Positions 10,453 through 36,400 of a DNA stretch of 64,000 bases are shown one piece after another. This DNA comes from Desulfovibrionaceae bacterium (GTDB lineage Bacteria > Desulfobacterota > Desulfovibrionia > Desulfovibrionales > Desulfovibrionaceae): positions 62,001 to 126,000 of the forward strand of contig JACCQO010000002.1 in NCBI GenBank assembly GCA_015709205.1, read 5' to 3'. A program made the translations under genes and the position numbers. Position 1 is the stretch's first letter. Each line of letters opens with the position of its first letter. A model generated the notes under the pieces. That model was not told the origin of the DNA, made no database searches, and was given only the letters and a program-made list of their open reading frames with translations.

Positions 10453-10899
10453 ATGAGGTTTGTTTCCGTTTTCGTGCGCCCCTGGCGTTTCCTTGCAGTC
10501 CTGGCGTTGCTGGCGCTCGCGCTGCCGCATCCCGCCGCCCTGGCGGGCGGCGCGGCCCAGCCGCCGAATCCCTCCGGTCCACCCATGACCACGGTCGAGA
10601 TGGTCAATCTGCAGAACAAGGCCGTGGACTATCAGTTCAGGACCGAGGGGTACAAGATCGTCTCCACCTACCGGGTCGGACCGGAGTCCCGCCGCACCGA
10701 GCAACTGGACCTGACCAAGGTTCTGCGCGGGAACGTCTGCGTTTGCGTCTACAACCCCGATGGGCTCTGCTATGTGAGCAGCTGTGAACTGCTGAAGATC
10801 TACAACGCCGACAACGTGCCAGCACACGCCTCGGTCCAGGCATGGCGCGAAACGTCGTTCAGCCTGAAGTTCACCGTCGTGTGGGACATGTGGGACTAG
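10453..10899 (+). CDS. Small secreted protein of unknown function
   Basis: A 148-residue protein with a clear Sec signal peptide (MRFVSVFVRPWRFLAV followed by a Leu/Ala stretch, likely cut near AALAGG). I chose ATG at 10453 because it starts the signal peptide cleanly, with a G-rich tract (GGGGGAAT) about 6 bases upstream. An earlier in-frame ATG at 10414 would put 13 extra charged residues in front. The mature part is about 115 residues, with four cysteines packed in VCVCVYNPDGLCYVSSC (about residues 96-112), suggesting two disulfides or a metal site in the periplasm. I do not recognise the family. Confidence 0.7.
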   Translation: MRFVSVFVRPWRFLAVLALLALALPHPAALAGGAAQPPNPSGPPMTTVEMVNLQNKAVDYQFRTEGYKIVSTYRVGPESRRTEQLDLTKVLRGNVCVCVYNPDGLCYVSSCELLKIYNADNVPAHASVQAWRETSFSLKFTVVWDMWD

Positions 10900-11016
10900 C
10901 CCCGGGTGCCCGCGCTCCGGCGGGTTCGCCGGAGCGCCGATGCCGCGTTCGCCCGCCGCAACGCCCGGTCCTGTGGGCAGTCCGTTCAGGGGGCGGCGTC
11001 CGCAAGCGCAGCGTCC

Positions 11017-12189
11017 CTAGCCCAGCCGGTCCGCGAGCACGGCGGCGATGCGCGCGCCCGCCTTGCCGTCCCACAGGTCCGGCGTCTCGCCCTTCTTGCC
11101 GCGTCCGGAAAGGATCTTGTCCGCCTCGCGCTGCATCCGGCCCATGTCCTGGCCCACGAGCACGTTGGTGCCCCGGCTCACGGTCACGGGGCGTTCGGTG
11201 TTGGCGCGCAGGGTCAGGCAGGGGGTGCCCAGGAAGGTCGTCTCCTCCTGCACGCCGCCGGAATCCGTGAGCACCAGGGCGGCGTGGCGCATCATGTTGA
11301 GCATGTCCAGGTAGTCCACGGGGTCGCACGCGCCGAGCCCCGCGCCGCGCCGGGCCACCCGCGCCAGGGGCTCGAAGTGCCCCTCCAGCCCGAATTCCCG
11401 CGACCGCGCCGCGGTGCGCGGGTGTAGCGGAAAGACCACGGGCAGCCGCTCGGAAAGCCGGGCCACGCCTTCCAGGATCGGGGCCAGGGTCTCGCGCCGG
11501 TCCACGTTGGAGGGCCGGTGCAGGGTCAGCAGGGCGAAGGGCCGGGCCGTTGCGCCGTTTTGGCCCCGCGCCGCGTCGCCCGCCGCCAGCCCCAGCGCGC
11601 CCAGGGTGTCCCGTTGGGCCGCGGCCTCGGACTGCAGCAGGAGCGAATCGATCATCGTGTTGCCTACGAAGTGGATCTTGTGCCGCTCCACGCCCGTGCG
11701 CCACAGGTTCTCGTTGCCCGATTCCTCGGTGGTGAAGAGCAGGTCGCTGATGGCGTCCGTGAGCACGCGGTTGATTTCCTCGGGCATGCTCTCGTCGAAG
11801 GAGCGCAGCCCGGCCTCCACGTGGGCCACGGGCACGCCGAGCTTTCTGGCCGTGAGCGCGCAGGCGATGGTCGAATTCACGTCGCCCACGACCACGACCA
11901 GATCCGGGCGCACGTCCGCGAGCACCTTTTCGAAGGCGACCATGATCGCGCCGGTCTGCTCGGCGTGCGTGCCCGAGCCCACGCCCAGGTTCACGTCCGG
12001 CTCGGGCAGGCCGAGCTGGCGGATGAACACGTCCGAGAGGTTGGCGGAATAGTGCTGGCCCGTGTGCACCAGCACCTGACGCAGGGGCGTGCGCCAGCCG
12101 GCGGGGGGCAGGGCGGCCAGGGCGCGGTGCACCGGGGCCACCTTCATGAAGTTGGGCCGCGCGCCCATGACGTGCACGATGGTGGGCAT
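11017..12189 (-). CDS. wecB: UDP-N-acetylglucosamine 2-epimerase (non-hydrolysing)
   Basis: A 390-residue enzyme that interconverts UDP-GlcNAc and UDP-ManNAc for surface polysaccharide synthesis. ATG at 12189 is followed by the family opening (VMGARPNFMKVAPV) and preceded by GGAG. Conserved catalytic segments are present: VVVGDVNST, HVEAGLRSFD, MPEEINR, TLHRPSNVD and LTDSGGVQEE. Length fits the family (about 370-400). Residues about 200-215 carry a small Gly/Ala-rich insertion. It is transcribed away from the neighbouring glycosyltransferase at 12388. The epimerase could supply ManNAc for the polysaccharides made by this region. A hydrolysing NeuC-type enzyme is the alternative, but the retained motifs favour WecB. 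Confidence 0.92.
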   Translation of the reverse strand: MPTIVHVMGARPNFMKVAPVHRALAALPPAGWRTPLRQVLVHTGQHYSANLSDVFIRQLGLPEPDVNLGVGSGTHAEQTGAIMVAFEKVLADVRPDLVVVVGDVNSTIACALTARKLGVPVAHVEAGLRSFDESMPEEINRVLTDAISDLLFTTEESGNENLWRTGVERHKIHFVGNTMIDSLLLQSEAAAQRDTLGALGLAAGDAARGQNGATARPFALLTLHRPSNVDRRETLAPILEGVARLSERLPVVFPLHPRTAARSREFGLEGHFEPLARVARRGAGLGACDPVDYLDMLNMMRHAALVLTDSGGVQEETTFLGTPCLTLRANTERPVTVSRGTNVLVGQDMGRMQREADKILSGRGKKGETPDLWDGKAGARIAAVLADRLG

Positions 12190-12387
12190 GGCGATCTCCG
12201 GGGTTGGGGCGGCGTTGGCCGCCCCGCCACGCGGGGCGTGCGCTGCGCCGCCATGTGCTGGTAATGCCATCTCCGCTCGGATGTTGCAAAACCTTTCCCG
12301 GCTCTGATAGCATGGCCGATCAAGGGGGCCTGTCACAGGGGGGCCCGTCACGGGGCCGCGCCCCGCATACCCAGCAGCAAGGCAGCC

Positions 12388-13593
12388 ATGAACGACGACT
12401 CCCGCTCTCCCGCCCGCCTCGGTTTTGTCGGGCACATCAACGACAACAAGTTCCTCAAGGACATCATGCGCGCGCTGTCCGCCACGCACGAGGTGCGCCT
12501 GGCCGACTACTTCGACGACGACGCGGTGCGCCGGATGGTCGCGGCCTCGGACGTGATCTGGGTGGAGTGGGGCACGGACCTGGCCGCCAAGATCGCGACC
12601 CTGGCCCCGGACAAGCGCAAGATCCTGCGCATCCACAGCTTCGAGGCCTTCACCTCCTACCCCGCGACCATCCCCTTCGAGCGCTATTCGGACGTGATCT
12701 TCGTTTCCGAATACATCCGCTCCCTGGTGGCCCAGCAGGTGCCGGACATGGAGGACCGCACGCGCACGCACATCGTGCGCAACGGCGTGGACCTCTCGCG
12801 TTTTTCCCTGAAGACCGGCAACAACCCCTTCGACATCGCCTTCGTGGCCATGTTCCGCCACGTGAAGAACATTCCGCTGCTGCTGCAGTGCTTCGCGGCC
12901 CTGCACGCGCGCGATCCGCGCTACAAGCTGCACATCGCGGGCGACTTCATCGGCGCGGAGGTGGACGTCAACGAGCTGGGCCGCTACCTGAGCCACATCA
13001 TCGAGGCCATGGGGCTGGCCGGTTCGATCATCTTCTACGGCCGCATCGACGACGTGCACGCCTGGCTTGCCGACAAGAACTGGATCGTGTCCACGAGCAT
13101 GCGCGAGGCGCATCCGCTGAACCTGGTGGAGGGCATGGCCGTGGGCCTGCGGCCCGTGGTGCACAACTATCCGGCCGCGCGCGAGGTCTTCGACGCCGAG
13201 TACGTGTTCAACACCGTGGACCAGTTCGTGGAGATGGTCCTCACGTCCGAATGCCGCCCGGAGCGCTACCGCGAGTTCGTGGAGTGCAACTTTCCGCTGG
13301 ACGGGCAGATGGAGCACATCGCGCGGATTCTGGCCCTGGGCTGGGACGCGGGGAGCGGCGCGGCCCGGGGGGCGGCCCGGAGTGCGGCCCCAAGTGCGGA
13401 CGGGCGGCGGGAGGAACGCGGGGCGGCGGGAGCCCCGGCCCCGGGGCTGGTGGACGCCGACGCGCCGGAGAACCGCCGCGTGCGCTCGTTGTTGAACCTG
13501 GCCGAGCACTACCGCCGCCGGGGCGAGGAGGCCAAGAGCGAGGAATACCTGGCCCAGGCCCGCGCCCTGATGGGCAAGGGCCCGCTGTCCTGA
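12388..13593 (+). CDS. Glycosyltransferase, GT4-like
   Basis: A 401-residue GT-B-type transferase. The N-terminal domain opens with LGFVGHINDNKFLKDI. The C-terminal domain contains HIVRNGVDLSRF (about residue 130), the typical linker before the nucleotide-sugar half, followed by VAMFRHVKN and the donor-binding acidic stretch STSMREAHPLNLVEGMA (about 238-254). The last 80 residues are an Ala/Gly-rich linker and a charged helical tail with a TPR-like look (LLNLAEHYRRRGEEAKSEEY). It is divergent from wecB and ends in a strong terminator. Probable role: adding a sugar to a surface glycan; donor and acceptor are unknown. Confidence 0.82.
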   Translation: MNDDSRSPARLGFVGHINDNKFLKDIMRALSATHEVRLADYFDDDAVRRMVAASDVIWVEWGTDLAAKIATLAPDKRKILRIHSFEAFTSYPATIPFERYSDVIFVSEYIRSLVAQQVPDMEDRTRTHIVRNGVDLSRFSLKTGNNPFDIAFVAMFRHVKNIPLLLQCFAALHARDPRYKLHIAGDFIGAEVDVNELGRYLSHIIEAMGLAGSIIFYGRIDDVHAWLADKNWIVSTSMREAHPLNLVEGMAVGLRPVVHNYPAAREVFDAEYVFNTVDQFVEMVLTSECRPERYREFVECNFPLDGQMEHIARILALGWDAGSGAARGAARSAAPSADGRREERGAAGAPAPGLVDADAPENRRVRSLLNLAEHYRRRGEEAKSEEYLAQARALMGKGPLS

Positions 13594-22244: not shown

Positions 22245-22766
22245 ATGAAAAAGTTGTCGAAGATTTTGGCAGTTGTTGTGTGCCTGAGCGTTTTGGGCAC
22301 CTTCGGGGTCGCCAATGCCGGTACCAGGACGGCGGCCATGGACGTCAGCGCGGAAGTCATCGACCTCGTGTCGGCCGTTACGACCACGGGTCTGAACTTC
22401 GGGTCCCTGATCCCGATCACCGGCGGCAACGCCACGCTGGACTGCTCGGCGGGCTTCAGCAACGCCCTGGCCGAGGACGGTGTGACCATCACCACTTCCA
22501 CCGCCCCGGTCGCCGGCGTGATCACCGTCACCGCCGCCGCTGCTGGCAACGTCACCATTACGGCTACCAACTCTACACAGATCCGCACCGGCGCCCTGGG
22601 CTCTCCGTCCATGACCGTCGACTGGATCTCTGACAACTCGCAGCTCGGTGCCCGCGTCGTCGCGGCCGGCGCCAACGACTTCTACGTCGGCGGACGCCTG
22701 AACGTGGGCGCGACCCAGGAAGCCGGCACCTACACCGGTACCCTGACCGTGACGGTCACGTACTAA
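22245..22766 (+). CDS. DUF4402 secreted protein, putative pilus/fibre subunit 1
   Basis: A 173-residue exported protein. The signal peptide MKKLSKILAVVVCLSVLGTF is probably cut after VANA (residue 25). The mature part is a beta-rich Thr/Ala/Val/Gly domain ending in FYVGGRLNVGATQEAGTYTG and TLTVTVTY, the closing beta-hairpin typical of DUF4402 proteins. Members are encoded with PapD-like chaperones and ushers and are thought to be fibre subunits, as here. The gene has the strongest ribosome-binding site in the window and a near-consensus promoter, suggesting abundant product. It is followed after 15 bases by a paralogue. Confidence 0.85.
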   Translation: MKKLSKILAVVVCLSVLGTFGVANAGTRTAAMDVSAEVIDLVSAVTTTGLNFGSLIPITGGNATLDCSAGFSNALAEDGVTITTSTAPVAGVITVTAAAAGNVTITATNSTQIRTGALGSPSMTVDWISDNSQLGARVVAAGANDFYVGGRLNVGATQEAGTYTGTLTVTVTY

Positions 22767-22781
22767 CCGACGCGACCAACG

Positions 22782-23291
22782 ATGGCTCTAAAGAAGGCCT
22801 TGGCCCTCACCGCGGCCGCAGGAGCGATGGCTCTCTCCATCCTCCTGTGGCCAGGGGGTCAAGGCCTTCTGGCCTTCGACGCCGTCTACGTGCAGCCCAT
22901 GTCCTTTGGGCGCATCATTCCCACCGGCACCTCTGAAACCCTTGAAATCGACGCCCGCACAGGGTATGCGCAAGCGACGGTCGTCAGCGGCGGCACGGTC
23001 ACGTTCCTCAACAACGGCTACAGCGGCATGATCCGCGTCATGACCAACTCCACGGCCGGGGGCGAGAACGTCACCGTCAACTTCCCCTCGTCGGCCGGCC
23101 TGTATCTTTACGACGGCGGCACCATCGTGGACTCCATGCGGCTCTACTTCATGCAGGAGCGGTCCATGACCTCCGGGGTCACGGTTTACGGCAACCTCGA
23201 CCTGTACTACGGAGGGCGGCTCGACCTGAAGGTCGGCCAGCGCGCCGGAACGTACACCGGTTCCGTGAACGTCAATCTGGTCATCAACTGA
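22782..23291 (+). CDS. DUF4402-like secreted protein, putative subunit 2
   Basis: A 169-residue exported protein with a hydrophobic leader (about residues 1-31, ending near GLLAFDA). It shares with its upstream neighbour the start of the mature domain (MSFGRIIPTGTSETLEID) and the ending LYYGGRLDLKVGQRAGTYTG plus a final beta strand. It is richer in Tyr and Met. The pair may be a major and a minor or tip subunit. It is 15 bases behind the first subunit and 38 bases before the chaperone gene in one operon. No obvious ribosome-binding site precedes its ATG, so expression is likely coupled and lower. Confidence 0.78.
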   Translation: MALKKALALTAAAGAMALSILLWPGGQGLLAFDAVYVQPMSFGRIIPTGTSETLEIDARTGYAQATVVSGGTVTFLNNGYSGMIRVMTNSTAGGENVTVNFPSSAGLYLYDGGTIVDSMRLYFMQERSMTSGVTVYGNLDLYYGGRLDLKVGQRAGTYTGSVNVNLVIN

Positions 23292-23329: not shown

Positions 23330-24193
23330 TTGATCCGCTCGCATCCGTTCCGCCTCGTCCTGTCCGCTTTCTTCGTTTCCATCGTGCTCGGCGCCGCCGT
23401 TGCGCACGCCGGGTCAGTCTCCCTGGTGGTCACGCCGACCCGCGTGGTGCTCGACGACCGTCACCGCTCCCAGGACATCCAGGTCATCAGCCTGTCCAAC
23501 GAGCGGCTGAGCTACGAGGTCGACACGGAGCACTACATGCAGGCGGGCGACGGCACCCTGTCCCCGGCTCGGCAGAAGACCAAGCGCCAGGAGCTGGCCG
23601 AAAAGATGATCCGCTTCTCCCCGCGCCGCGCCACGCTGGCGCCCAAGGGCACCCAGGTCGTGCGCCTTGTCTATCGCGCACCGCAGGGGCTGCCGGACGG
23701 CGAATACCGGCTGCACATGTCCGTGCAGCCCACGCCGCTGGATTCCTCGGCCGCGGCACTGGGCACCGGAGAGGGCGGCAGCGACCAGGCCGCGATCCTG
23801 GACATCTACGTGGGCATCTCCATCCCGGTGTTCGTGCGCGTGGGCGAGTCCAGCGCCAAGGTCGCCGTGACCGGAGCCACCTTCGCCTCGCCCAAGGGCA
23901 AGCCCGGCGCGCCGGGCCTCAAGGTGGGCTTCAAGCGCAGCGGCAACCGCTCCACCTTCGGCGACGTGAGCGTGATCTACAAGCGGCCCGGCGACGCCAA
24001 GGGCCGCCTGCTCGGCAGGCTTCCGGGCATCCCCATCTACTATCCCAACGAGAACCTGGAGATCGTGGTGCCCCTGGACCTGAAGTCCGGCGAGGCGCTC
24101 AAGTCCCTGGCCGGCGGCAGCATCGAGGTCCTGTATCAGGACGCCGAGGGCGACCAGGGCGAGGTGCTCGCCTCGAGCACGTTCAATCTTTAG
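23330..24193 (+). CDS. Periplasmic PapD-like fimbrial chaperone
   Basis: A 287-residue exported protein. Translation probably starts at TTG (23330) four bases after AGGAGG. The signal peptide ends near AVAHA (residue 27). The first Ig-like domain has the chaperone pattern VVTPTRVVLDDRHRSQDIQV and later FSPRRATLAPKGTQVVRLVYR, with the hydrophobic/basic G1-like strand that donates to subunits. A second beta domain follows, ending at LASSTFNL. Chaperones of this type keep subunits folded and deliver them to the usher; the usher here is on the opposite strand at 25062-28388. The family call is good; which subunit it serves is inferred from the operon. Confidence 0.82.
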   Translation: MIRSHPFRLVLSAFFVSIVLGAAVAHAGSVSLVVTPTRVVLDDRHRSQDIQVISLSNERLSYEVDTEHYMQAGDGTLSPARQKTKRQELAEKMIRFSPRRATLAPKGTQVVRLVYRAPQGLPDGEYRLHMSVQPTPLDSSAAALGTGEGGSDQAAILDIYVGISIPVFVRVGESSAKVAVTGATFASPKGKPGAPGLKVGFKRSGNRSTFGDVSVIYKRPGDAKGRLLGRLPGIPIYYPNENLEIVVPLDLKSGEALKSLAGGSIEVLYQDAEGDQGEVLASSTFNL

Positions 24194-24575: not shown

Positions 24576-25004
24576 TCAGAACAGGCTGGGGCTGTTGGGG
24601 GAACCGTCCGTGGCGACCGTGGTGCGCCGTTTGGAGCGGATCTCGGGGTCCGCGCACACCGCTTGCATGGCCTCGTCCAGGCCGGCGTGGCAGTCGGGCT
24701 TCATCAGCAGGTGATAGACGCACCATTGTTCCTCGAAGGGATAAATGTAGTGGTCTCCATGCTCCTCGTTCATGCAGGTCACGGTGTAGAGCGAGACCCT
24801 GTAGTTGTCGAACACGCCCTTCTGCTTCTTCTCGAATTCGCAGGTGCGCACGATGCGTTTCGAACTGCGCGTGGAGTGGGCGACCTTGTCCGCCGCGGGC
24901 GGGACCCGGAAACCGGCGCTCGCGCCCCGGGGGCCGGTGGCGCAGCCCGCGGACGCGGCCGCGAGGGCGGCGAGGAGCAGGAGCAGGGCTGGTGTGCTGC
25001 GCAT
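24576..25004 (-). CDS. Small lipoprotein of unknown function near the usher
   Basis: A 142-residue protein with a lipoprotein signal (MRSTPALLLLLAALAAASAG followed by Cys21; lipobox SAGC), so probably outer-membrane anchored. Five further cysteines lie in the mature part, for example RTCEF, TVTCMN, QWCVY, PDCHAG and AVCAD, suggesting disulfides. ATG at 25004 has AAGGAG eight bases upstream. It follows the usher gene by 57 bases on the same strand and may be co-transcribed with it. I do not recognise the family; a pilus-accessory role is only inferred from position. Confidence 0.72.
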   Translation of the reverse strand: MRSTPALLLLLAALAAASAGCATGPRGASAGFRVPPAADKVAHSTRSSKRIVRTCEFEKKQKGVFDNYRVSLYTVTCMNEEHGDHYIYPFEEQWCVYHLLMKPDCHAGLDEAMQAVCADPEIRSKRRTTVATDGSPNSPSLF

Positions 25005-25061: not shown

Positions 25062-28000
25062 TCACGATTGCGGTATCTCCACCACTTCGGCGGAAACCTG
25101 CCGTCCGCGCAGGGTCTGGCCCAGGGCCAGGGCCCGGGCCCGATCCAGCGGACCGGCGATCACCCGGTAGAAGGTGCCGCGATCGGGCACCTGCACCGGG
25201 ACGATGCGGAAGTTCACGTCGGCGAACAGCTCCGGCGATTCGGTCTTGAACCCGTCGATGGCGGCCAGGGCGTTGTCCTCTGAGACGTAGGAGGCCAGGT
25301 GCACGCCGAAGGCCTGCCCTGGGGCGGCAGCGGCGAAGGCGGTGGCCGGAGCGGCCGTGAACGAGGTGAAGCCCTTCTGGGCCACGAACCCGCCGTCGTC
25401 CTGGCCTGCCTGGCCCGCCTGGCCCATGCGCGCATTCCCGAAGCTCAGGGACTGGGCCGAGAAGCCCTTTTCCACGGCCAGGTCCGGCGAACGCTCGGTG
25501 AACCGCTTGGGCGAGGCCGCGATGAGTTCGGACTTGGATTGGTACAGGGCCAGGTCCGTCCAGCTCTTGATTTCGCCCTTGCCGGAAACCTTGACGGGCG
25601 GGGAGGGCATGGCGAACAGGCCGTGCTTCATGAGGTAGTCGGGCGCGGGACGGACCACGTAGGTTCCGGGCCGCACCTGGCGGAAGATGTAGAAGCCGTC
25701 CGCCGCGGCCTTGGCCGTGGCCTGGATCACGCCGGAGGCGTCCACCAGTTCCAGGGGCAGGTTGGGCACCTGCACCGGTGTCCCGCCGTCGGCAAGAAAG
25801 ACGTTGCCGTCGATCTCGCTGGTGACCTGCACGGGATAGTCGAGCACGTAGGTCTTGCCCGGGCGCACGTACACGGCGTCGCCTTCGGTCACGGTGGACC
25901 AGAAGTAGTTCCAGTCCTTGCCCTTGTCGATCTCGATGTCCACGGGCCGGTAGCTGGGCAGGCCGAGCAGGGCGGCCACGCCCGAGTCGTCGGTGCGCTC
26001 CCTGGCGCCGACCTGGGTGGCCTTGACGAAGACGCGCTTGAGGGGCTCGTCGCCCTCGTCGAAGACGTAGTTGTAGTTGCGGTCCAGGAAGACGCGCACG
26101 GACACGCCGCCGGAAAGGGCCATGTTGCGCTCGTCCGGGGTGGGTACGCCGGTCCTGGGATCCAGCCCCAGGGACATGTTGAAGTTGGTGTTCATTTCGA
26201 AATAGCCCGCGTCGGAGTAGGACAGGGCGGGCGAGATGACCAGGCTGCCCAGGGTGATGTCCAGGCCCCCGCCGTAGGCATTGTACGGGTCCTTTTCGCT
26301 GTCGTGCTGCTTGCGGTAGCTTAAGAAGGCGCCGACGTGGTCCGTGAGGCTCCAGCGCTGGGTGTAGCGCAGGTCGTAGTAGCCCAGGTGCACCGTGGGG
26401 CGCAGCGTGTAGCCCATTTCGCTGTAGAGCTCGATACGTCCCAGGCCCGGGTGGTTTTCGAATTCGTAGTCGCCGCGCAGCAGGACCGAGCCGGTGATGT
26501 TCTTGAATTCCTGCACGTCCTTGCCGGTTCCCGTGGAGGACAAGCCATGCGACAGGTGGGTATCCTCGGCGATGAGGGCGGAGATCGTGTGTCCGAGGGT
26601 GTAGTCCGTCCTGTCGGCGTATTCCGTGCGCACGAAGCCCAGGTTGTTGCCCAGGCCGATGTCGTCGGTCAGGGACACGCCGGCGAAATCCAACCCCGCG
26701 GAAGTGCGGTGGCGCAGGCGTTCGCTGGCCACCAGGCTCTGGTCGTCGTAGTCGTCGAAGAACGACTCCTGCTTGAAGTTCAGGCTGAAGAAGTCGAAGC
26801 CTTTGGTCAGGGTGGCCTGCGCCTTGTGGCCGCCGTAGGTGTCCACCAGGCCGTCGGCGCGGAAGTAGAGCCGGTCGGGCCCGAGCAGGCTGGTGCCCAG
26901 GTAGACGTAGTTGTGGCGCTCGTTCTCGAGCTGGATGCTGTTGACGCCGGTGAACACCGAGGCCCAGTCCGCGAGGCCGTAGCTGAACAGGGCCGTGCCC
27001 ATGACGGCGTTGTCATCCTTGCCGCGCGGCAGTTCCTTGTAGGTGATGGTCTGGCTGTTCTGCTGGATCAGGGACAGGCCGTACTCCAGCTTGCCCGGGG
27101 CGATCATCTCGCGGCCCACGTCCACGGTGCGCGTCTCGGTGCGCTTCTGGCCCTGGGGGCCGTAGAACTTGAGCATGATGTCGTTGCGGCCATAGTAGAG
27201 CTGGATGTCCGGGAACTCGTAGCGGCCGTCGTCGCCCACGGTGACCGAGCCGAGCAGCCGCTGGTTGTGGTAGAGTTCCACGTCCCAGCCGGGCAGGCTG
27301 TCGCCCACGACGGTGGTGGTGTCGTAGAGGTTGTTCGACCCCAGGGCGCGGTTTTCCACGTAGATGCCGCGCTCGTTGGAGCGGATGCCCTGGCCCGGGA
27401 AACGCACGGTGTCCACGTCGCCCAGGACCACGCGCGTCGCGCCCAGGGGGCCGAGCATCTGGCCGGTCGGGTCCACGCGCTCGCCGGTGATGCGCAGCGT
27501 CTCCAGGTAGTTGTCGTCGGTGTCGTCCTTGCCCGAGGCGTAGACCTTGGTGCTCATGAAGGCCAGGTCGCCGGTGTAGGTAAGGGCGTAGCGGTTGGTC
27601 GAGGTGGTCTCGTCCTTGTTTTCGTGCTTGTTGATGTTGTTGCTGAAGTTCGTGTCCAGCCCGTGCAGGGAGAAAAACTCGTAGTCCATGCCGCGCAGGG
27701 GCAGGTTCACGGAATAGCTGCCGGGCTTGGAGGTCCGCCGCCCGTGCTTGCGCGCGAGCTTTTCCTGGATGGGCAGCGGCTGGGAAGGCTTCAGGGTGAC
27801 GCGCAGCTTGGACAGGCTGACGTTGATCTCCATGGGAAACCACTTGGCGAGCAGCAGGGTGGAGACGTACAGGCCGAATCCGTCGTCGCGCACCTGGTAG
27901 GCCGGAAACGAGTGGATCGTTCCGGCGATCTCCACCTGGCCTGCGCGCCTGTTGAGCCGGAAGGTGTTCTTCTCGTCCAGGAACCAGCCGGTGGCCTCTT

Positions 28001-28388
28001 GGAGGTCCGTAGACGTGGTGATCGGGAAGGAGATGGCCTCCACGAAGGTCTCGAAGGGCAGGAAGACCTGCTTGCCGTCGTCGTAGCCGAGCATGCCCTC
28101 GTACAGGAACATGTCGTCCACGGCCAGGTTGAGGATCAGCAGGTTCTTTTCGGAGAGGACCGGGTCGGTTTTCCTGGCCCCGCCTTCCTGCACCGGGGCG
28201 TCCAGGTCCGTCGGGGCCGGGGCCGTGTCGGGCGCGGCCAGGGCCGGGCACGCGACGGCGAGGAACAGGGCGGCCGTCAGCGCGAGCGCAAGGGCCAGGG
28301 ACGCAAGCCGAGGCTGCGGTCGGGGGGGCGCTACGGGGCCCGGGGTGGGCGCCGTGCGCCGGGACGGAGCGGGGCGTTCGCGTTTCAT
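25062..28388 (-). CDS. Outer-membrane usher-like protein with C-terminal SPOR domain
   Basis: A 1108-residue exported protein. A basic N-terminus and hydrophobic segment (about residues 29-51) make a long signal peptide. Residues about 75-215 resemble the usher N-domain. The central part is a Tyr/Gly-rich beta barrel with the alternative-usher motif YGRNDIMLKFYGPQGQKR and repeated barrel strands. Near residue 770 a Ca-binding-like FLDRNYNYVFDEGDEPL starts carboxypeptidase-regulatory-like beta domains. The last 82 residues (about 1027-1108, FGVHLASYVSEDNALAAI to the end) form a SPOR-type peptidoglycan-binding domain. Ushers secrete and assemble chaperone-delivered fibre subunits. The SPOR ending, in place of ordinary usher C-terminal domains, is unusual. 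It faces the DUF4402/chaperone operon from the other strand. Confidence 0.8.
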   Translation of the reverse strand: MKRERPAPSRRTAPTPGPVAPPRPQPRLASLALALALTAALFLAVACPALAAPDTAPAPTDLDAPVQEGGARKTDPVLSEKNLLILNLAVDDMFLYEGMLGYDDGKQVFLPFETFVEAISFPITTSTDLQEATGWFLDEKNTFRLNRRAGQVEIAGTIHSFPAYQVRDDGFGLYVSTLLLAKWFPMEINVSLSKLRVTLKPSQPLPIQEKLARKHGRRTSKPGSYSVNLPLRGMDYEFFSLHGLDTNFSNNINKHENKDETTSTNRYALTYTGDLAFMSTKVYASGKDDTDDNYLETLRITGERVDPTGQMLGPLGATRVVLGDVDTVRFPGQGIRSNERGIYVENRALGSNNLYDTTTVVGDSLPGWDVELYHNQRLLGSVTVGDDGRYEFPDIQLYYGRNDIMLKFYGPQGQKRTETRTVDVGREMIAPGKLEYGLSLIQQNSQTITYKELPRGKDDNAVMGTALFSYGLADWASVFTGVNSIQLENERHNYVYLGTSLLGPDRLYFRADGLVDTYGGHKAQATLTKGFDFFSLNFKQESFFDDYDDQSLVASERLRHRTSAGLDFAGVSLTDDIGLGNNLGFVRTEYADRTDYTLGHTISALIAEDTHLSHGLSSTGTGKDVQEFKNITGSVLLRGDYEFENHPGLGRIELYSEMGYTLRPTVHLGYYDLRYTQRWSLTDHVGAFLSYRKQHDSEKDPYNAYGGGLDITLGSLVISPALSYSDAGYFEMNTNFNMSLGLDPRTGVPTPDERNMALSGGVSVRVFLDRNYNYVFDEGDEPLKRVFVKATQVGARERTDDSGVAALLGLPSYRPVDIEIDKGKDWNYFWSTVTEGDAVYVRPGKTYVLDYPVQVTSEIDGNVFLADGGTPVQVPNLPLELVDASGVIQATAKAAADGFYIFRQVRPGTYVVRPAPDYLMKHGLFAMPSPPVKVSGKGEIKSWTDLALYQSKSELIAASPKRFTERSPDLAVEKGFSAQSLSFGNARMGQAGQAGQDDGGFVAQKGFTSFTAAPATAFAAAAPGQAFGVHLASYVSEDNALAAIDGFKTESPELFADVNFRIVPVQVPDRGTFYRVIAGPLDRARALALGQTLRGRQVSAEVVEIPQS

Positions 28389-28624: not shown

Positions 28625-29695
28625 TTAAAGTCCGACGAGCCCGAGCATGGAGGAGAAGAAGCCGCCCTCGCCGTCGGAGTTCTCCGCTCCGCCGTCGGGC
28701 TGGGCCGTCCGGGCATCCGCCGTCGTGGGGGCGGGCTGCTGGGCGTTGGCCGCAGGTCGCGTCGTCGGGGCGTCCTCGGCGGCGGCTTGCTGCTGCACGG
28801 CGTCCTGGCCCATGGCGTTCGCATCTTCCTGCGCGTTGTCGGGCGCCGGGGGGGCGGCGGCCTCGACCTTGGCGCAGGCCGCCGCCAGGGCTTCCTCGCG
28901 TGTGCCGACGCAGTCGGTGGGGAAGCCCAGGGGATCGTGCAGGCACCAGCGCGGGCCCAATTGGTTGTGGAAGTTCAGGTCCAGGCCTGGTTCGCCGTTC
29001 TTGCAGGTCGTGGAGAAGAGCGCGCCCACGAGGCCGAGGGCGCCCATGTTTTCCGAGCGCTTGTAGGTGGTCAGGCGTTCGGGCGGACGGCCGAATTCGT
29101 CGGCCGGATCGATGATCTTGTCGGTGTAGCCGCCTACGTTGCTCAGTCCCTGGATCTGGGTGGGAGAAAGAGGCACCGTGGGGCCGACGGCCTTGGCCGG
29201 GGTCCCCTTTTTCGTTCCTGTGGCTGCGTCCGCCGCGATGGCGCGGGCCAGGGCGGCCTTGCGCAGTTCCTTGACGCGCTGCGTGCCCAGCTCGGCCACG
29301 CGTTCGGCGGACAGGGGCACGCGGCGGCCCGTGGCCTTGTCCACGGCCGGATCGGCCGGGGCGGCTGCGGTGGCGTTCGCGACCCCTGCGGCGGCCCCTG
29401 CGCCGGGCTGGGCAGCGGTCTGTGTGGTGGTCTGTGCGGCGGGCGCATCGCCGGTTTTTGGGGTGGGCGTCGCGCCGTCCAGGAGGCGGGCCGCCGTCTG
29501 GTGCGGCCGAACCGCGGGGGCGGTGGCCCCGGGGACGACCCGCATGGGCTGCGCGGCGCGCTGCGGTGCGCAGCCCGCGGCCGCGACGAGCGCCAGCCCG
29601 AGCAGCAGGGCCGGAACCAACCGTTGCGCCGCACCGGCGGCAACGCGGCGGGCCGGGCCACGCCGGAGTTGGGAGGGACGGGCGAACAAACGCAT
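28625..29695 (-). CDS. Low-complexity lipoprotein of unknown function
   Basis: A 356-residue probable lipoprotein: signal segment with lipobox VAAAGC (Cys about residue 33). ATG at 29695 is preceded by TAGGAG at six bases. The N-terminal mature part is Ala/Thr/Pro-rich, likely an extended periplasmic tether. The middle (about 150-280) is ordered, with conserved-looking GGYTDKIIDPADEFGRPPERLT and four cysteines between CKNGEPG and CAKVEAA. The C-terminus is again Gln/Ala-rich. It lies eight bases after the TPR gene and upstream of the usher, so probably belongs to the same secretion/fibre unit. Family not recognised. Confidence 0.7.
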   Translation of the reverse strand: MRLFARPSQLRRGPARRVAAGAAQRLVPALLLGLALVAAAGCAPQRAAQPMRVVPGATAPAVRPHQTAARLLDGATPTPKTGDAPAAQTTTQTAAQPGAGAAAGVANATAAAPADPAVDKATGRRVPLSAERVAELGTQRVKELRKAALARAIAADAATGTKKGTPAKAVGPTVPLSPTQIQGLSNVGGYTDKIIDPADEFGRPPERLTTYKRSENMGALGLVGALFSTTCKNGEPGLDLNFHNQLGPRWCLHDPLGFPTDCVGTREEALAAACAKVEAAAPPAPDNAQEDANAMGQDAVQQQAAAEDAPTTRPAANAQQPAPTTADARTAQPDGGAENSDGEGGFFSSMLGLVGL

Positions 29696-29703
29696 GGCGG
29701 CTC

Positions 29704-31254
29704 CTACGGGCAGGCCTTCTGGGTGCGTGCGGCCTCGATCACGCCGCACTGGCCCAGGGAGCAGGCCGAGGTGAAGTCCGCGCACATGTCGCCGGAGCGG
29801 CCCAGCTCCTTGTAGGCGAAGCCCCGGTTCAGGTAGGCCTGCGCGTACCTGGGATCGATCTGGATGGCCTTGGAGTAGTCCTGCACGGCCTTGTCGTACT
29901 CGCGCAGGAAGTGCTCGGAAAAACCGCGGTTGTTGAAGGCCTTGGCGAACAGGGGATCGGCGTTCACGGCCTTGGTGTAGGCGGTCACGGCCTCCTTGTA
30001 GCGGCCCAGGTCGTGCAGGGCCGCGCCCTCGTTGTTGTAGGGCACGGCGGCGTCCGGCGTGCGCACCACGGCGCGGTAGGTCAGGTTCAGGGCCTGCTCC
30101 GGGTCGTTGTACCGGCCGCTTTCCTCGTCCCAGAGCCGGGCCGTGGAGTGCACGAGCTCCTTGGAGGTCATGCGCTCCAAGGGCTTGGCCTGCTGCGGCG
30201 CGGCCGCTTCGTCCATGTCGCCCGCGGGCGCGTCCAGGTCGCCGAATTCGTGGGAGGCCGCCTCGTTGACGATGCGCGGCACAAAGGGCGAGGCGTCCGC
30301 AGCCGCTTGGGCGGCGGCCTGGGCGGTCTGTTCCGGCGTGGCCGGAGCGGCCGGTGAGCCCGGTGCGGCCGCTGCGGCGGGCGCAACCGGCGCGGCGGGA
30401 ACTGCCGACGCGACCTGGGCCGCCGGGGCCTGGGCCACGGCCGCGGGGGCCGGAGATTCCACCGGAGCGGCTTCGGCGACGGCCGGAACCTGCTGTGCCG
30501 CCGGGGCCAGGTCGCGTTCGGCCGGGACCTGGGCTGCCGGGGCCTGGGCTGCCGGGGCCGCCGAAGCGGCCATGGCGGGCGCAGCCGGAGCCGGGGCCGG
30601 GCTGGGCGCGGCCAGGGCAAAGGAGCCGCCCGGCTCCTGCGCCGGAGCCGGGGCCGGGACGGCGGGCGCCGCCGGAGCCGGGGCCAGGGAGGGGCCCGCG
30701 AGCGTGGGTGCCTGCCCGGCGACGGCGGCTCCGGCCGGGGCCTGCGCGAGCTGCGGCTGGTCCAGGTAGGCTCCGCCCGTGGCCGCCCACTGGCGCATGG
30801 CCTCCTGGAACTGGGACATCTCGATGGGAATCTTGACCCGGGCCCTGGCCGTGGGGCCGCGGCCGGTGGTCAATTCGCGCTTGTCCACCACCTGGGCGGG
30901 GAAATGGTATTTGACGAGCTTGGCCAGCACCAGCTTGTCCATGCGCATCTGGCGGACCATGAAGTTCTTGCGCAGGAAGGTCAGGGCCTTGCGCATGGCC
31001 TGTTCGCCGGCCTGGCGCACGGCGGCCTGCTCGGCCGCCTCCGGACTGCCGCTGTCCATGACCGCCACGCGCGCGTCGCCCATGAAGTTGAGTGCGGCCT
31101 GGGCCGGAAGGGGCAGCGCCGCGCAGAGGGCGAGGGCCAGAACGGCCGCCAGGAGGGACGGGACCGGGACGAACGGCCTGCGCCGCGCTGCGGCCGGAGC
31201 GGCTTGCGTCCGCGCGGAGGCTGCCGGGGGATCTTCGGTGCGAGGTGCGTACAT
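29704..31254 (-). CDS. Exported TPR protein with Ala/Pro-rich linker
   Basis: A 516-residue protein. A long signal peptide ends near PLPAQA (about residue 52). Residues about 54-165 form a small alpha/beta domain with spaced alanines (EAAEQAAVRQAGEQAMRKAL), resembling FlgT-N/LPP20-type outer-membrane assembly domains by eye. A Pro/Ala linker of roughly 200 residues follows, long enough to span much of the periplasm. The C-terminus carries three to four tetratricopeptide repeats (about 395-495; NNEGAALHDLGRYKEAVTAY, AFNNRGFSEHFLREYDKAV, AYLNRGFAYKELGRSGDM). It heads the minus-strand unit that includes the lipoprotein and the usher. A scaffold role in fibre assembly is inferred. Confidence 0.72.
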   Translation of the reverse strand: MYAPRTEDPPAASARTQAAPAAARRRPFVPVPSLLAAVLALALCAALPLPAQAALNFMGDARVAVMDSGSPEAAEQAAVRQAGEQAMRKALTFLRKNFMVRQMRMDKLVLAKLVKYHFPAQVVDKRELTTGRGPTARARVKIPIEMSQFQEAMRQWAATGGAYLDQPQLAQAPAGAAVAGQAPTLAGPSLAPAPAAPAVPAPAPAQEPGGSFALAAPSPAPAPAAPAMAASAAPAAQAPAAQVPAERDLAPAAQQVPAVAEAAPVESPAPAAVAQAPAAQVASAVPAAPVAPAAAAAPGSPAAPATPEQTAQAAAQAAADASPFVPRIVNEAASHEFGDLDAPAGDMDEAAAPQQAKPLERMTSKELVHSTARLWDEESGRYNDPEQALNLTYRAVVRTPDAAVPYNNEGAALHDLGRYKEAVTAYTKAVNADPLFAKAFNNRGFSEHFLREYDKAVQDYSKAIQIDPRYAQAYLNRGFAYKELGRSGDMCADFTSACSLGQCGVIEAARTQKACP

Positions 31255-31332: not shown

Positions 31333-31482
31333 CCGGGGGCGCGTTTGCGGGCGTCGGTTCGGGACCGGACGGGCTGGCGTGGCCGCGTCCTCTCTGGCTC
31401 TTTCGGCAGGATCGGAAAAAGCTTTATCCCCTGAGGGCTGCGGAAGTGCCTGACGGAGTGGCGCAGGACCGGGGGGCCGTTC

Positions 31483-33633
31483 TCAACTGCCGGAAGGCGC
31501 GGGCGCGGCCGCGTCCGCTTCGGGGCGCTCGCCCGCGTCCCCGTGCGTGTCCCCGTGTGTGTCCCCGGACGCGTCCTCGGGCGCGTCTTCGGGCGGGGCC
31601 GGGGCCGGGCGCCCCAGTTCGGCCAGCCGCCTGCGCGCCGGGGCGAACCCCGGATCCAGGGCCAGCGCGCGGCGGAACAGGGCCACGGCTTCCTCGGTGT
31701 GGTCCGAGGTCAGGAGCAGGGCCCCGAGGTTGTAGGTGGCCTCCACGTGCTTCGGCTCGATCTGCAGCGTCCGGGCGAAGGACCGCGCCGCGCCCTGGCG
31801 GTCGCCCGCGCGCAGCAGGGCCACGCCCTTGTTGTAGTGCGCCGAGGCCAGGGACGGATCCAGGGTCAGGGCCGCGTCGAAGGAGGCCAGGGCTTCGTCC
31901 AGGCGTCCGGTTTCCATGAGCATGTAGCCCAGGTCGTCGCGGCCCTTGGCGTAGCCGGGGTCCGCGGCGTTGGCCCGGCGCACGTATTCCATGCCCTCGG
32001 CCGCGCGGCCCAGGTGGAACAGGGCGATGCCCAGGTGGTCCAGGGGGTTGGGATCGCGCGCGTTGAGCTTGACGGCCTCCTGGAAGGGCGAGAGCGCCTC
32101 CTGGTAGCGGCCCAGGCGCAGGAGCTCCAGGCCCATGTTGTAGAAGGCCATGGGGTATTCCGGGTTGATGCGCAGGGCCGCGCGGAACTGGTCGCCCGCG
32201 GCCGCGTAGTTCTTGCGCTTGCTCAGGGCCGCCCCGAGCATGCAGTGGGCGATGAAGTTGTTCCGGGTGCTTGCCAGGGCGTGCTCGAACAGGGTCACGG
32301 AGTCCTTCCACACCGCGGTCTGGACCCAGGTCACGGGCACCAGGGAGCCCACGGCGGTCCAGGTGGCCAGGGCCAGCACCAGCCAGGGGCCGGCCCAACC
32401 GAACCCGGCCCGGACGCGCAGCCGTTCGGCCCCGGCCCACACGGACCAGACCGCGGCCACGTAGAGGCCCATGTAGGGGAAATAGGCGTAGCGGTCGGCC
32501 ATGGACTGCAGCCCGACCTGCACGATGCCGATGACCGGCACCAGCGCGCCCAGGAACCAGAGCCAGCCCACGAGCACGAAGGGCGCGCGCCGCGCCAGGC
32601 GCAGGCCCAGCCAGCCCAGGCCGACCACCAGGGTCAGCCCCACGGCGGCCCCGGCCAGGGGCGGCGACGCCGGGAACGGATAGATCACGGCCAGGTCGTG
32701 CGGCAGCACGGCCTTGCCCAGATAGGCCCCGTAGGCCGCCAGCGCGTTGGCCAGGCGCGGCAGCAGCCCGTTCTCGGCGAACGAGCGCATGGCCCCGCCG
32801 CGATCCTGGGCCAGCACGGTGATCACGCAGGAGGCCGCGCTGAGCGCGAAGAGCGGCCATTTTTCCAATACCAGGGGCACCAGGGGCCCCAGCGGCCCCA
32901 GACGAGGGACGACGCCCCCGGCCGTTTTTGCGGCCGGAGCCGGAACGCGGCCCAGGGGCCAGAAATCGAGCAGCAGCAATACGCAGGGCAGGGTCACGAG
33001 CATGGGCTTGCACATCAGGCTCAGCGCCATGCACAGGGCCACCACGGCCATGCGCCCGGCCGCGGGCGCGCGCGCGTAGCCCGTGTACGCCAGCATGCCC
33101 AGCAGGCCGAAGAAGACCGAGAGCACGTCCTTGCGCTCCGAGATCCAGGCCACGGACTCCACGTGCATGGGGTGCACGGCGAACAGGGCCGCGGCGGCCA
33201 GGGCGCGCCAGGGGGCCCCGGTGGCGCGCGCCAGGAAGAGGAAGAGCAGCGCGGCGTTGGCCGCGTGCAGCAGCAGCGAGGTCAGGTGGTGGCCCATGGG
33301 GTCGGTGCCCCAGAGGGTCACGTCGAGCATGTGCGCCAGCCAGGTAAGGGGGTGCCAGTTGGCCATGCGCAGGCTGGTGAAGGCCCAGAGCGCGCCGTGT
33401 CCCGTGAGCCCCTCCAGGACCACGGCGCGGTCCGTGACGTAGCCGTTGTCGTCGTAGTTCAGGAATCCGGCGTCGAGCACGCCGTAGTGCGCCAGGATGG
33501 CCAAGCCGGCCACGAGCAGCGCCATCCACGTGCGCGTCCAGCCGGAGCGGACGGCGGCGTCCGCGTCGGCCGGGACGGCATCGGGAACGGGCGCGGCGGC
33601 GAGGCCGGGGGTGCGGAAAAGGGTACGACTCAT
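31483..33633 (-). CDS. Membrane GT-C-like glycosyltransferase with TPR domain (paralogue 2)
   Basis: A 716-residue inner-membrane protein. About ten transmembrane helices occupy residues about 35-440. The first periplasmic loop has the acidic motif NYDDNGYVT and later NWHPLTWLAHMLD, then HPMHVESVAWISERKDVL. This layout matches the TMTC/DUF1736-like GT-C family, in which a lipid-linked sugar is transferred to protein. The C-terminal 260 residues hold about seven tetratricopeptide repeats (for example YPMAFYNMGLELLRLGRYQEAL), probably for acceptor recognition. ATG at 33633 overlaps the upstream paralogue stop (ATGA). A mannosyl- or other O-glycosyl-transfer role is inferred from family and operon. 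Confidence 0.75.
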   Translation of the reverse strand: MSRTLFRTPGLAAAPVPDAVPADADAAVRSGWTRTWMALLVAGLAILAHYGVLDAGFLNYDDNGYVTDRAVVLEGLTGHGALWAFTSLRMANWHPLTWLAHMLDVTLWGTDPMGHHLTSLLLHAANAALLFLFLARATGAPWRALAAAALFAVHPMHVESVAWISERKDVLSVFFGLLGMLAYTGYARAPAAGRMAVVALCMALSLMCKPMLVTLPCVLLLLDFWPLGRVPAPAAKTAGGVVPRLGPLGPLVPLVLEKWPLFALSAASCVITVLAQDRGGAMRSFAENGLLPRLANALAAYGAYLGKAVLPHDLAVIYPFPASPPLAGAAVGLTLVVGLGWLGLRLARRAPFVLVGWLWFLGALVPVIGIVQVGLQSMADRYAYFPYMGLYVAAVWSVWAGAERLRVRAGFGWAGPWLVLALATWTAVGSLVPVTWVQTAVWKDSVTLFEHALASTRNNFIAHCMLGAALSKRKNYAAAGDQFRAALRINPEYPMAFYNMGLELLRLGRYQEALSPFQEAVKLNARDPNPLDHLGIALFHLGRAAEGMEYVRRANAADPGYAKGRDDLGYMLMETGRLDEALASFDAALTLDPSLASAHYNKGVALLRAGDRQGAARSFARTLQIEPKHVEATYNLGALLLTSDHTEEAVALFRRALALDPGFAPARRRLAELGRPAPAPPEDAPEDASGDTHGDTHGDAGERPEADAAAPAPSGS

Positions 33634-35414
33634 GGTGTTGCGGGTGCGAGGCCCAGTCGGCCCTGGAGTTGTTCCCACTTGGCCAGGGCGCGGCGGGCGC
33701 GGTCGAGGTTTGCGGTCTTGGTTTCGTCCTTGGGATCCAGGTCCACGGCGCGCTGGAATTCCGCCACGGCCCCGGCGTAGTCGCGGCGCTTGAACGCGAC
33801 CACGCCCAGGGTGTTGCGGGCCTCGGCGTAGCCCGGGGTGCGCTTCAGGATCCGGCGCGCGTATTCCTCGGCCTCGTCCAGGCTGCCTTCCTGGAGCAGG
33901 GCCAGGGAGATCATGTGCAGGGTCTGGCGGTGGTTCGGGTCGCGCTCGAGCCCTTGGCGGAAGAGTTCCAGGGCGGATTCGGGGTCGCCGTCCTCGTAGA
34001 ATTCGTAGCCCGCGGCCACGTAGGCCTCGGGGCTGTGGTGCGTGGCCTCGATGGCGTGGGCGAAAAGGGTGCGCGAATCCTTCCATACCCCGGTCTGCGC
34101 GCGCGTCAGGGGCAGGAGCACGGCCAGGGCCGCGCCGAGCAGCACGGCGGCCGCCGCGCCGCGCCGCGCCCGCGATCCGGCTTCGGTCCCGCCCCGGCGC
34201 GCCAACAGCGCTCCCGTTCCCCAGGCCAGGGCCACGTAGAGCCCGATGCACGGCAGGTAGGCGTAGCGGTCGGCCATGGCCTGCCTGCCCACCTGCACCA
34301 GGCCGATGACCGGCAGCAGGGCGACCAGGTACCAGAGCAGGCCGAAGAGCAGCGCCGGGACCTTCCTGCGCAGCCGCCACGCGGCCCAGAGCGCCCAGCC
34401 CAGCAGCACGGCGCACCCCGCGCCCTGCCACAGCGGCGCGTCGGCGGGCAGGGGGTAGAAGACCGCCAGGTCGTGCGGCGCGAGCAGCTTGGCCGCGTAG
34501 GCCACGTAGGAGACCAGGGCGTTGGCCGCGCGCAGCGCCGGGTCGGCCAGCTCCATGGAGGCCACGGCCCCGCCCCGGCTCTGGGCGACCATGGTCACCC
34601 AGGCCGAGGCCAGGGACAGGGCCGCGAGCGGCAGCTTTTCGGGCACGAGCCGGCGCGCGTCCTCCAGCAGCCGCCGCAGGGCGGGCGACGTTCTTGCGCC
34701 GCACCGGGGAACGGGACCATCGACCCCATTTCCCTCCTCCCCGGATTCCCCGGGCGACGCAAAGGCGGTTCGGCCCAGGGGCCAGAAATCGAGCAGCAGG
34801 AGCAGCGCGGGCAGGGTGACGAGCATGGGCTTGGCCATCAGCCCCAGGGCCATGCAGGCGGCCACGAGCAGCCAGCGGCCCGGGCCCGGCCTGCGCGCGT
34901 AGCGCACGTAGGCCAGCAGCGCCAGCAGGCCGAAGCAGAGAAAGAGCACGTCCTTGCGCTCCGAGACCCAGGCCACGGACTCCACGTGCAGCGGATGGAC
35001 CGCGAAGAGCGCGGCCGCGGCCAGGCTGCGCCAGGGCGCGCCCGTGGCCGCGAGCAGGAAGAGCAGCAGCAGGGCCGCGTTGAGCGCGTGCAGGGCCAGG
35101 CTGGTGCGGTGGAACACGCGCGCGGAAATGCCGTCCGCCCCGCTCAGGTCCGCGTCGAGCATGTACGAAAGCCACGTCAGCGGGTGCCAGTTGGCCACCT
35201 CCAGGGAGCTGAAGGCGAACGCCACGTTGTCGCGCGTCAGCCCCTCGGGCACCATGGGATTGGCGGTGACGTACTCCTCGTCGTCGTAGTTGGTGAAGCC
35301 GTTGTCCAGGCCCGGGGCATGCGCCAGCAGGGCCAGGCAGGCCACGGCCACGGCCAGCAGCAGCGGCAGCACGCGCCGCAGTGCGGGCGCAAGGGGCGAG
35401 GCGGCGGCCGTCAC
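33630..35414 (-). CDS. Membrane GT-C-like glycosyltransferase with TPR domain (paralogue 1)
   Basis: A 594-residue inner-membrane protein, paralogous to the next gene: NYDDEEYVT, NWHPLTWLSYMLD, HPLHVESVAWVSERKDVL and KPMLVTLPALLLLLDFWPLG are shared with small changes. About ten transmembrane helices are followed by about three tetratricopeptide repeats. Start is GTG at 35414 with AGGGGGA upstream, overlapping the methyltransferase stop (GTGA). The pair probably arose by duplication, with the second copy carrying more TPRs. The likely role is transfer of a polyprenyl-phosphate-linked sugar to periplasmic protein; acceptor unknown. Confidence 0.75.
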   Translation of the reverse strand: MTAAASPLAPALRRVLPLLLAVAVACLALLAHAPGLDNGFTNYDDEEYVTANPMVPEGLTRDNVAFAFSSLEVANWHPLTWLSYMLDADLSGADGISARVFHRTSLALHALNAALLLLFLLAATGAPWRSLAAAALFAVHPLHVESVAWVSERKDVLFLCFGLLALLAYVRYARRPGPGRWLLVAACMALGLMAKPMLVTLPALLLLLDFWPLGRTAFASPGESGEEGNGVDGPVPRCGARTSPALRRLLEDARRLVPEKLPLAALSLASAWVTMVAQSRGGAVASMELADPALRAANALVSYVAYAAKLLAPHDLAVFYPLPADAPLWQGAGCAVLLGWALWAAWRLRRKVPALLFGLLWYLVALLPVIGLVQVGRQAMADRYAYLPCIGLYVALAWGTGALLARRGGTEAGSRARRGAAAAVLLGAALAVLLPLTRAQTGVWKDSRTLFAHAIEATHHSPEAYVAAGYEFYEDGDPESALELFRQGLERDPNHRQTLHMISLALLQEGSLDEAEEYARRILKRTPGYAEARNTLGVVAFKRRDYAGAVAEFQRAVDLDPKDETKTANLDRARRALAKWEQLQGRLGLAPATP

Positions 35415-36400
35415 CGCGCGTCCCCCTCTTGAACAGGCGCGCCCGCCGGTGCGCGCAAATAGAGCGTGGCCGTGGAGCCGTCGTGCGCGGCCGAGGCCAG
35501 GTTGGCCTGCGCGGCGGCCACGGGCAAAAGCAGCGGGCCCAGGGCCAGCCCCGCCAGGGTGCGCAGCGGCCCGCCCGTGGTCTTGGACGTCCCGCGCACG
35601 TTTTTGATGACCTCGAAGGGAAAGAGCGGGTGGAAGCCGAGGCGCGTGTACAGGCCGCAGAGGCTGTCTATGACGTTGAACTCCTGGCAGAAGTGGTCGA
35701 AGGCCGAAATCTCGAAGCCGCGCCGGCAGAGGTGCTCGGCCAGCCGGTCCATATCGAAGTGGACCACGTGGCGCGGCAGGTCCAGGTGCAGCCAGTCGGC
35801 CCCGGCCCGGCGCGCGCGGGTCGATCCGAAGTTGGGCAGCGAGAGCACCACCAGCCCGCCGGGGCGCAGGCCCGCCACGGCGGCGTCGAAGGTCTCGCCC
35901 GGGTTGGTGAAGTGCTCCAGGGAGTGCCAGAAGGTCACGGCGTCGAAGCGCCGCGCGTCCGCGGCCAGGGCCTCGGCCACGGTGGGGAAGACGCGGTCCG
36001 CGCCGATGTTCGCGCGTGCGCGGCGCGCGGCCGTGGTGTCCAGCTCCACCCCGGCCACGTCGTAGCCCCTGCGGGCCAGCTCGCGCAGCATCACGCCGCG
36101 CCCGCAGCCCACGTCGAGCACGCGCCCGCCCCGGGGCGTGCGCCGGGCCACGCGGCGGGCGCGGGCCACCCGCAGCGCGCGCGAGATGCGCTCCACCGGG
36201 CCCACGAACTTGGCCTCGCCCTCGCCGTAGTAGGCGTCGTCGTAGAACGCGGCGAGTTGTTCCGCCGTGGGCATGGGGTCCAGGAAGGCCGTGCCGCAGT
36301 CCGCGCACGCGGCCAGGTCGTAGCCGCAGGTCGCCGCGTCGTAGCCCTTGAGCGGCGCGGTGCGCGTCCCCCGGCAGAAGGGGCAGGGCGCGGCGGCCAT
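35411..36400 (-). CDS. Class I SAM-dependent methyltransferase with N-terminal zinc-ribbon-like motif
   Basis: A 329-residue cytoplasmic protein. Two CxxC pairs (CPFC near residue 6 and CADC near 32) form a probable zinc ribbon. The SAM-binding motif VLDVGCGRGVMLREL is at about residues 93-107, then WHSLEHFTNPGETF, typical of methyltransferases acting on sugars or lipids in glycan loci. A C-terminal hydrophobic helix (about 285-305, LALGPLLLPVAAAQANL) may touch the membrane. Start ATG overlaps the glycosyltransferase stop by one base (TGATG). It probably methylates the sugar or lipid intermediate used by the two GT-C proteins downstream. Confidence 0.8.
   Translation of the reverse strand: MAAAPCPFCRGTRTAPLKGYDAATCGYDLAACADCGTAFLDPMPTAEQLAAFYDDAYYGEGEAKFVGPVERISRALRVARARRVARRTPRGGRVLDVGCGRGVMLRELARRGYDVAGVELDTTAARRARANIGADRVFPTVAEALAADARRFDAVTFWHSLEHFTNPGETFDAAVAGLRPGGLVVLSLPNFGSTRARRAGADWLHLDLPRHVVHFDMDRLAEHLCRRGFEISAFDHFCQEFNVIDSLCGLYTRLGFHPLFPFEVIKNVRGTSKTTGGPLRTLAGLALGPLLLPVAAAQANLASAAHDGSTATLYLRAPAGAPVQEGDAR

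Follow-up and report, generated by a model that had tools for sequence, protein, structure and literature searches.

An usher-like protein with a C-terminal SPOR domain beside DUF4402 subunit and chaperone genes in a Desulfovibrionaceae bacterium

Can the usher of a chaperone-usher pilus system carry its own binding domain for the cell wall? This question is raised by a gene in a 64,000-nucleotide stretch of a Desulfovibrionaceae genome (assembly GCA_015709205.1, contig JACCQO010000002.1, positions 62,001 to 126,000; hereafter the window), which encodes a long usher-like protein ending in a domain of the SPOR family. An original prediction, made from the letters alone, had placed it correctly at positions 25062-28388 and omitted that it lies on the minus strand. 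Here we show by profile searches, structure prediction and a survey of relatives that the usher-SPOR architecture is real, conserved beyond the window's genome and apparently undescribed as an usher build. We consider it fairly probable that the protein is the usher of a chaperone-usher pilus system and is tethered to peptidoglycan, which may also set its position.

The usher fold and the SPOR tail

The fold was read from an AlphaFold2 model built on an 85-row alignment (mean pLDDT 86.2); a model based on 7 relatives only had low confidence (mean pLDDT 43.7) and was discarded. The 18 best Foldseek matches of the retained model were all FimD and PapC, with E down to 1.9e-28 at about 12% identity. 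The model contains a plugged barrel and C-terminal beta domains, and its N-terminal domain lies outside the alignment. Six barrel strands were counted ahead of the plug and 17 long ones behind it, and the plug is presumably such by its position, which is analogous to that of the FimD/PapC plug. Because the non-SPOR part of the model matches FimD and PapC, the protein is, by its modelled fold, an usher as predicted, although it goes unrecognised by the Pfam usher models. Sequence searches of the PDB, run with the window protein, its family profile and the SPOR tail in turn, yielded neither an usher chain nor a SPOR chain. The predicted alternative-usher motif, YGRNDIMLKFYG, is indeed present at residues 399-410 of the translation, but the link to alternative ushers is weak: TcfC (PF16967) was absent from the window protein at E <= 0.1, and its matches in the plug region of the relatives P0002 and P0004 were sub-threshold (E 0.083 and 0.3).

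The predicted regulatory beta domains were also recovered. CarboxypepD_reg and SdrD_B fall slightly below their Pfam cut-offs at residues 873-913 of the window usher, and 72 of the family's 74 C-terminal segments contain them at E <= 0.05, in a set that leaves aside 7 of the 80 loci, whose frames are truncated or broken, and 6 relatives with P000x labels. At the end of the protein, PF05036 (SPOR) scored 25.3 bits over residues 1024-1103 (E 2e-5), its cut-off being 21. In a SPOR search of the window's assembly, six places including the usher tail were found, all above the cut-off, and the usher tail scored E 1.5e-6. In the whole-protein model, from which the topology was read by DSSP, residues 1026-1105 follow the beta-alpha-beta-beta-alpha-beta order of SPOR domains. 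The SPOR unit had been foreseen as the final 82 residues from FGVHLASY, and this stretch does begin at residue 1027 and run 82 residues to the C-terminus. The usher thus ends in SPOR as proposed, but the two classical C-terminal domains are kept. Replacement of these domains by SPOR was ruled out, as the model retains both and the SPOR domain comes after a linker (Table 1).

Table 1. Features of the usher-SPOR gene and of the adjoining subunit and chaperone genes (window positions)
Feature	Position	Strand	Basis
Usher-SPOR ORF P0001	25062..28388	(-)	ATG start, 1108 aa; usher fold by model, SPOR by Pfam
N-terminal leader, hydrophobic signal-peptide-like stretch, residues 1-52	28233..28388	(-)	By eye from translation
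N-terminal periplasmic domain, residues ~83-201	27786..28142	(-)	Model strands and helices; outside the alignment with PDB ushers
Beta barrel, residues ~239-743	26160..27674	(-)	Model; matches FimD and PapC
Plug domain within barrel, residues ~357-424, contains YGRNDIMLKFYG	27117..27320	(-)	Model
First C-terminal beta domain, residues ~760-852	25833..26111	(-)	Model; FimD alignment reaches model residue 896
Second C-terminal beta domain, CarboxypepD_reg/SdrD_B-like, residues ~853-958	25515..25832	(-)	Pfam and model
Disordered linker, residues 960-1021 (~60 residues)	25326..25511	(-)	pLDDT <50 in model
SPOR domain, residues 1024-1103	25080..25319	(-)	Pfam, own-genome search, model topology
DUF4402 pilin-like subunit 1	22245..22766	(+)	PF14352 E 6.9e-19
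DUF4402 pilin-like subunit 2	22782..23291	(+)	PF14352 E 5.1e-10
PapD-like periplasmic chaperone	23330..24193	(+)	PapD_N E 0.0013, below cut-off; member of conserved cassette

SPOR domains among relatives and in neighbouring genes

The usher-SPOR link is recurrent in several bacterial groups, judged by sequence profiles, and is not unique to the window's genome. A search of genome contigs with the single protein gave no relative. A family-alignment search gave 245 in named genomes, of which the best 80 were retained, and the survey set of 87 usher proteins includes these 80. A SPOR profile matched 12 of the 87, a count that rests on iterating the profile on the same tails and that, since the query carries SPOR-like tails, likely puts the SPOR share of the best 80 too high for the whole family. 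This survey of DUF4402-associated ushers, suggested in the original prediction, thus recovered the same fusion elsewhere. Among 261 shuffled proteins none matched at E <= 1 with the first SPOR profile and one matched at 0.8 with the last. A weak point is that a small profile, built only from five SPOR domains of the window's genome that lie outside ushers, gave the window usher E 0.13, although 9 of the 87 ushers reached E <= 0.01 with it. Pfam SPOR was present at E <= 0.05 in 13 of the 74 C-terminal segments; individual Pfam scans exceeded the SPOR cut-off in relatives L030, L037, L038, L040, L047 and L053, and found no SPOR in L048, L078, L101 and L105. When tails were compared as groups with the SPOR profile by hhalign, those of Vibrio/alteromonad ushers reached 92.8% probability, against 0.4% for the C-termini of tail-less ushers used as a control. 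The NCBIfam models of FtsN, RlpA and DamX also match some usher relatives, and in P0003 the Pfam SPOR domain stands ahead of the N-terminal domain instead of at the C-terminus. Three SPOR copies occur in each of four Desulfobacterales-type or related ushers and two copies in each of three others, and the linkers span about 36-274 residues; such tandem copies and linkers would suit a tether. In L071 the SPOR repeats occupy their own frame (11993-12523) directly after the usher frame (8704-11982), by sequencing error or true split.

On a quick tree (LG+G4, 79 rows, 8 of the 87 proteins omitted) tail-less and tailed ushers are strongly clustered, with at least 4 changes for the tail-less label; when SPOR and SPOR-like rows are pooled and set against all others, 8 changes result, in which gain and loss are not distinguishable; the labels place L053 and L058 as SPOR-like, though L053 later exceeded the Pfam cut-off.

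SPOR is also found near the cassette as separate genes. On a Pseudoalteromonas plasmid, the cassette of DUF4402, chaperone and usher genes is flanked by two separately annotated SPOR proteins, one at each end, and a gene for a TPR protein comes after it. Separate SPOR lipoprotein genes were present in all five Vibrio/alteromonad loci surveyed, two of which have two. Ten of the separate proteins were scanned and each has a Pfam SPOR match; nine exceed the cut-off, and that of L074 scores 20.6 against 21. By eye these proteins start like lipoproteins, as judged by the lipobox pattern. The tail-less locus L061 has a weak separate SPOR match (E 0.0028), with the profile of five non-usher SPOR domains from the window's genome only. 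A SPOR domain would fall within 18 kb by chance at roughly 2-3% of loci, a rough figure taken from the six places in the 4.25 Mb of the window's genome. Through the usher-fused domains and the adjoining SPOR lipoprotein genes, SPOR is, on this reading of gene content, tied to the DUF4402 usher system in two ways, by fusion and by neighbourhood.

In the window, the usher gene is convergent with two adjoining DUF4402 genes and a chaperone gene, so that both subunits and chaperone of a chaperone-usher system are present. Among the 87 usher loci, 73 have both DUF4402 and chaperone genes, 6 have one partner and 8 have neither; contigs are often short in this last group, and since many loci end near the usher, missing neighbour genes are not proof of absence. 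The usher is convergent to the pilin-chaperone genes at 6 of the 13 loci listed as SPOR-bearing versus 3 of the 59 other named chaperone loci.

The window's genome is a draft, in which the only two DUF4402 genes found by profile search both lie inside the window and the window usher was the sole match of a family-profile search, with no second copy. The search within the genus covered this genome only; within the family, six genomes, all from one genus, have usher relatives at about 24% identity. Of 395 genomes sampled across the phylum, 174 match the SPOR-usher profile; among the matches listed, only that in G493 covers most of the usher, and nearly all others are confined to SPOR or to a C-terminal domain. 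The G493 frame (907 residues) ends, by eye, without a SPOR tail. A 166-residue frame, G380:C10:6908-7312 (L122), matches only positions 5-128, the N-terminal part, of the SPOR-usher alignment (E 4.7e-24), so that this segment may also occur as an independent protein. The ushers P0002-P0007 (loci L023-L028) have a hydrophobic start without an obvious cleavage site and, ahead of the N-terminal domain, a long lysine/proline-rich region, which would suit an anchored or periplasm-spanning protein.

Around the window usher, lipoprotein-like genes at 24576-25004 (-) and about 28625-29700 (-) flank it on the same strand. These two have a short cysteine-bearing stretch in common (phmmer E 2e-6, one-sequence search), and neither has a Pfam match at E <= 0.1. 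A TPR protein with a long alanine/proline-rich middle is encoded at 29704-31254 (-), with weak relatives at L030, L060 and L090, and two similar large membrane proteins, TMTC-type with TPR repeats by reading, lie upstream of the usher at 31424-36308 (-).

What the tail may do

In the mechanism that we propose, the PapD-like chaperone would hand the DUF4402 subunits to the usher N-terminal domain, and the subunits would be joined at the C-terminal domains and exit via the plugged barrel. The disordered arm, about 60 residues long, follows the second C-terminal domain and would hold SPOR on the periplasmic side, where it would grip the glycan strands of peptidoglycan and so tether the usher to the cell wall. 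The tethered usher would probably be enriched at septa and new poles, where such strands abound. We infer that these proteins assemble pili, and likewise that the usher binds glycan, is tethered and is placed in this way; relatives with the same design in other bacteria suggest that the cell wall holds or positions such pili. As a wider and more tentative proposal, the DUF4402 chaperone-usher lineage may couple its platform to peptidoglycan through SPOR, fused at either end or carried by lipoproteins of the cluster, and thereby install pili at division sites and new poles.

The glycan-site residues bear directly on this proposal. According to one study (PMC6895207), RlpA and FtsN hold the glycan with a glutamine and basic residues; in RlpA this glutamine touches the glycan, FtsN and DamX also require it, and Q251, W283 and R285 of FtsN matter for septal localisation. 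In the window SPOR domain, the equivalent of FtsN R285 is R1075, and this arginine is retained in 21 of 22 fused SPOR domains, with one gap; a tryptophan two residues before it is found in 15 of 22, the window protein having phenylalanine. Several findings weigh against our reading. The equivalent of RlpA Q270 is a histidine (H1030), as in 19 of the 22 fused domains, glutamine being present in 3. By hhalign the tails of three other groups matched SPOR at 53, 41 and 33% and those of four further tailed groups at <3%. In addition, 42 of the 79 tree rows are labelled tail-less, and so many tail-less relatives indicate that SPOR is dispensable for the usher core. Finally, no Pfam usher family, PF00577 included, was found in the window protein at E <= 0.1. 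Since the arginine and tryptophan are mostly kept but the glutamine has become histidine, glycan binding by the fused domains is plausible from these residues, and their ligand preference may differ.

Of the alternatives, the one that survives best is that the tail is mainly a mechanical wall anchor all over the cell, without septal or polar preference. An usher would have to bear the pulling force on its pilus, up to three SPOR copies on long linkers would serve this end, and according to a review it is only in the outer membrane that the usher anchors the pilus rod (PMC7616799). However, the SPOR domains studied to date prefer denuded, septum-enriched strands (PMC6895207), and we regard a purely mechanical role as somewhat unlikely.

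We give still less weight to a genuine SPOR domain that no longer binds glycan and acts as a protein-interaction or regulatory module, for example as a dock for the chaperone-subunit complex or a partner lipoprotein. The histidine substitution fits this possibility, as do the far-drifted tails of alteromonad ushers (Pfam SPOR in L037, not in L078 or L105) and the adjacent separate SPOR lipoproteins, which mostly retain the glutamine while the fused tails drift. The retained arginine and W-x-R motif speak against it, together with tandem copies that fit avidity for a polymer and the glutamine-bearing fused copies in L038 and L047.

It is very improbable that the protein is another barrel exporter with a borrowed fold and not a working usher. 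The missing Pfam usher entry would agree with such an exporter, as would the family-profile search of the PDB, in which no usher sequence appeared at E <= 1, and the records of plasmid-borne relatives, six of seven of which are named only by regulatory domains or as hypothetical, the seventh being unannotated. On the other side, FimD and PapC lead the structural matches by a wide margin, DUF4402 and chaperone genes accompany most of the ushers, and the NCBIfam PefC/AfrB usher model matches 2 of 45 family members (best E 3.2e-6); PF00577 is found in 1 of the 45 (E 0.005).

Lastly, an assembly or sequencing artefact at the junction, an objection that the original prediction had raised along with separate encoding of the two parts, has in its favour solely that the genome is a draft of 120 contigs, and it can be set aside as having next to no chance, because a single open frame with high third-position GC (0.939 in the barrel, 0.893 in the linker, 0.875 in SPOR) spans the junction and named, independent genomes have the same domain order, SPOR occurring elsewhere as separate genes as well.

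Relation to known systems and meaning of the finding

Compared with FimD and PapC, the window usher is alike in its N-terminal domain, its plug-interrupted barrel and its two C-terminal beta domains, but it differs in sequence, in escaping the Pfam usher models and in its SPOR tail on a disordered arm, which to our knowledge known ushers lack. The alternative (alpha) TcfC ushers are linked only by sub-threshold matches in the plug region of two relatives, and the subunits of the window system are DUF4402 proteins. The tail belongs to the same SPOR family as FtsN, DamX, DedD and RlpA, and W-x-R is partly retained in the fused domains; those proteins act in division or morphogenesis (PMC6895207), whereas the window domain sits on a pilus platform and has histidine for glutamine. 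The PilQ secretin of type IVa pili is alike in idea, as an outer-membrane pilus pore with peptidoglycan-binding domains, and its AMIN domains are described as recruiting it to septa and poles (PMC5285504, PMC10653833). In contrast, the pore and the wall-binding domain of the window usher are unrelated to those of PilQ, and the pilus class is different. No usher with SPOR, or wall-binding usher of such kind, was found described in the open-licence literature, which agrees with the original prediction, although the build itself is not confined to this protein; no paper on DUF4402 was found there either.

In the standard picture (PMC7616799), the usher alone holds the chaperone-usher pilus in the outer membrane. 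If our reading is true, a wall-binding tail would explain how the usher platform withstands force and what determines its location, two questions that could be tested through one domain of about 80 residues. As of 2019 all known SPOR proteins were assigned to division and morphogenesis (PMC6895207), and the use of SPOR would then extend beyond these processes. Under the wider proposal, the system would be to chaperone-usher pili what PilQ and its AMIN domains are to type IVa pili. In addition, the plasmid-borne relatives, presently named by regulatory domains or as hypothetical, would gain an annotation.
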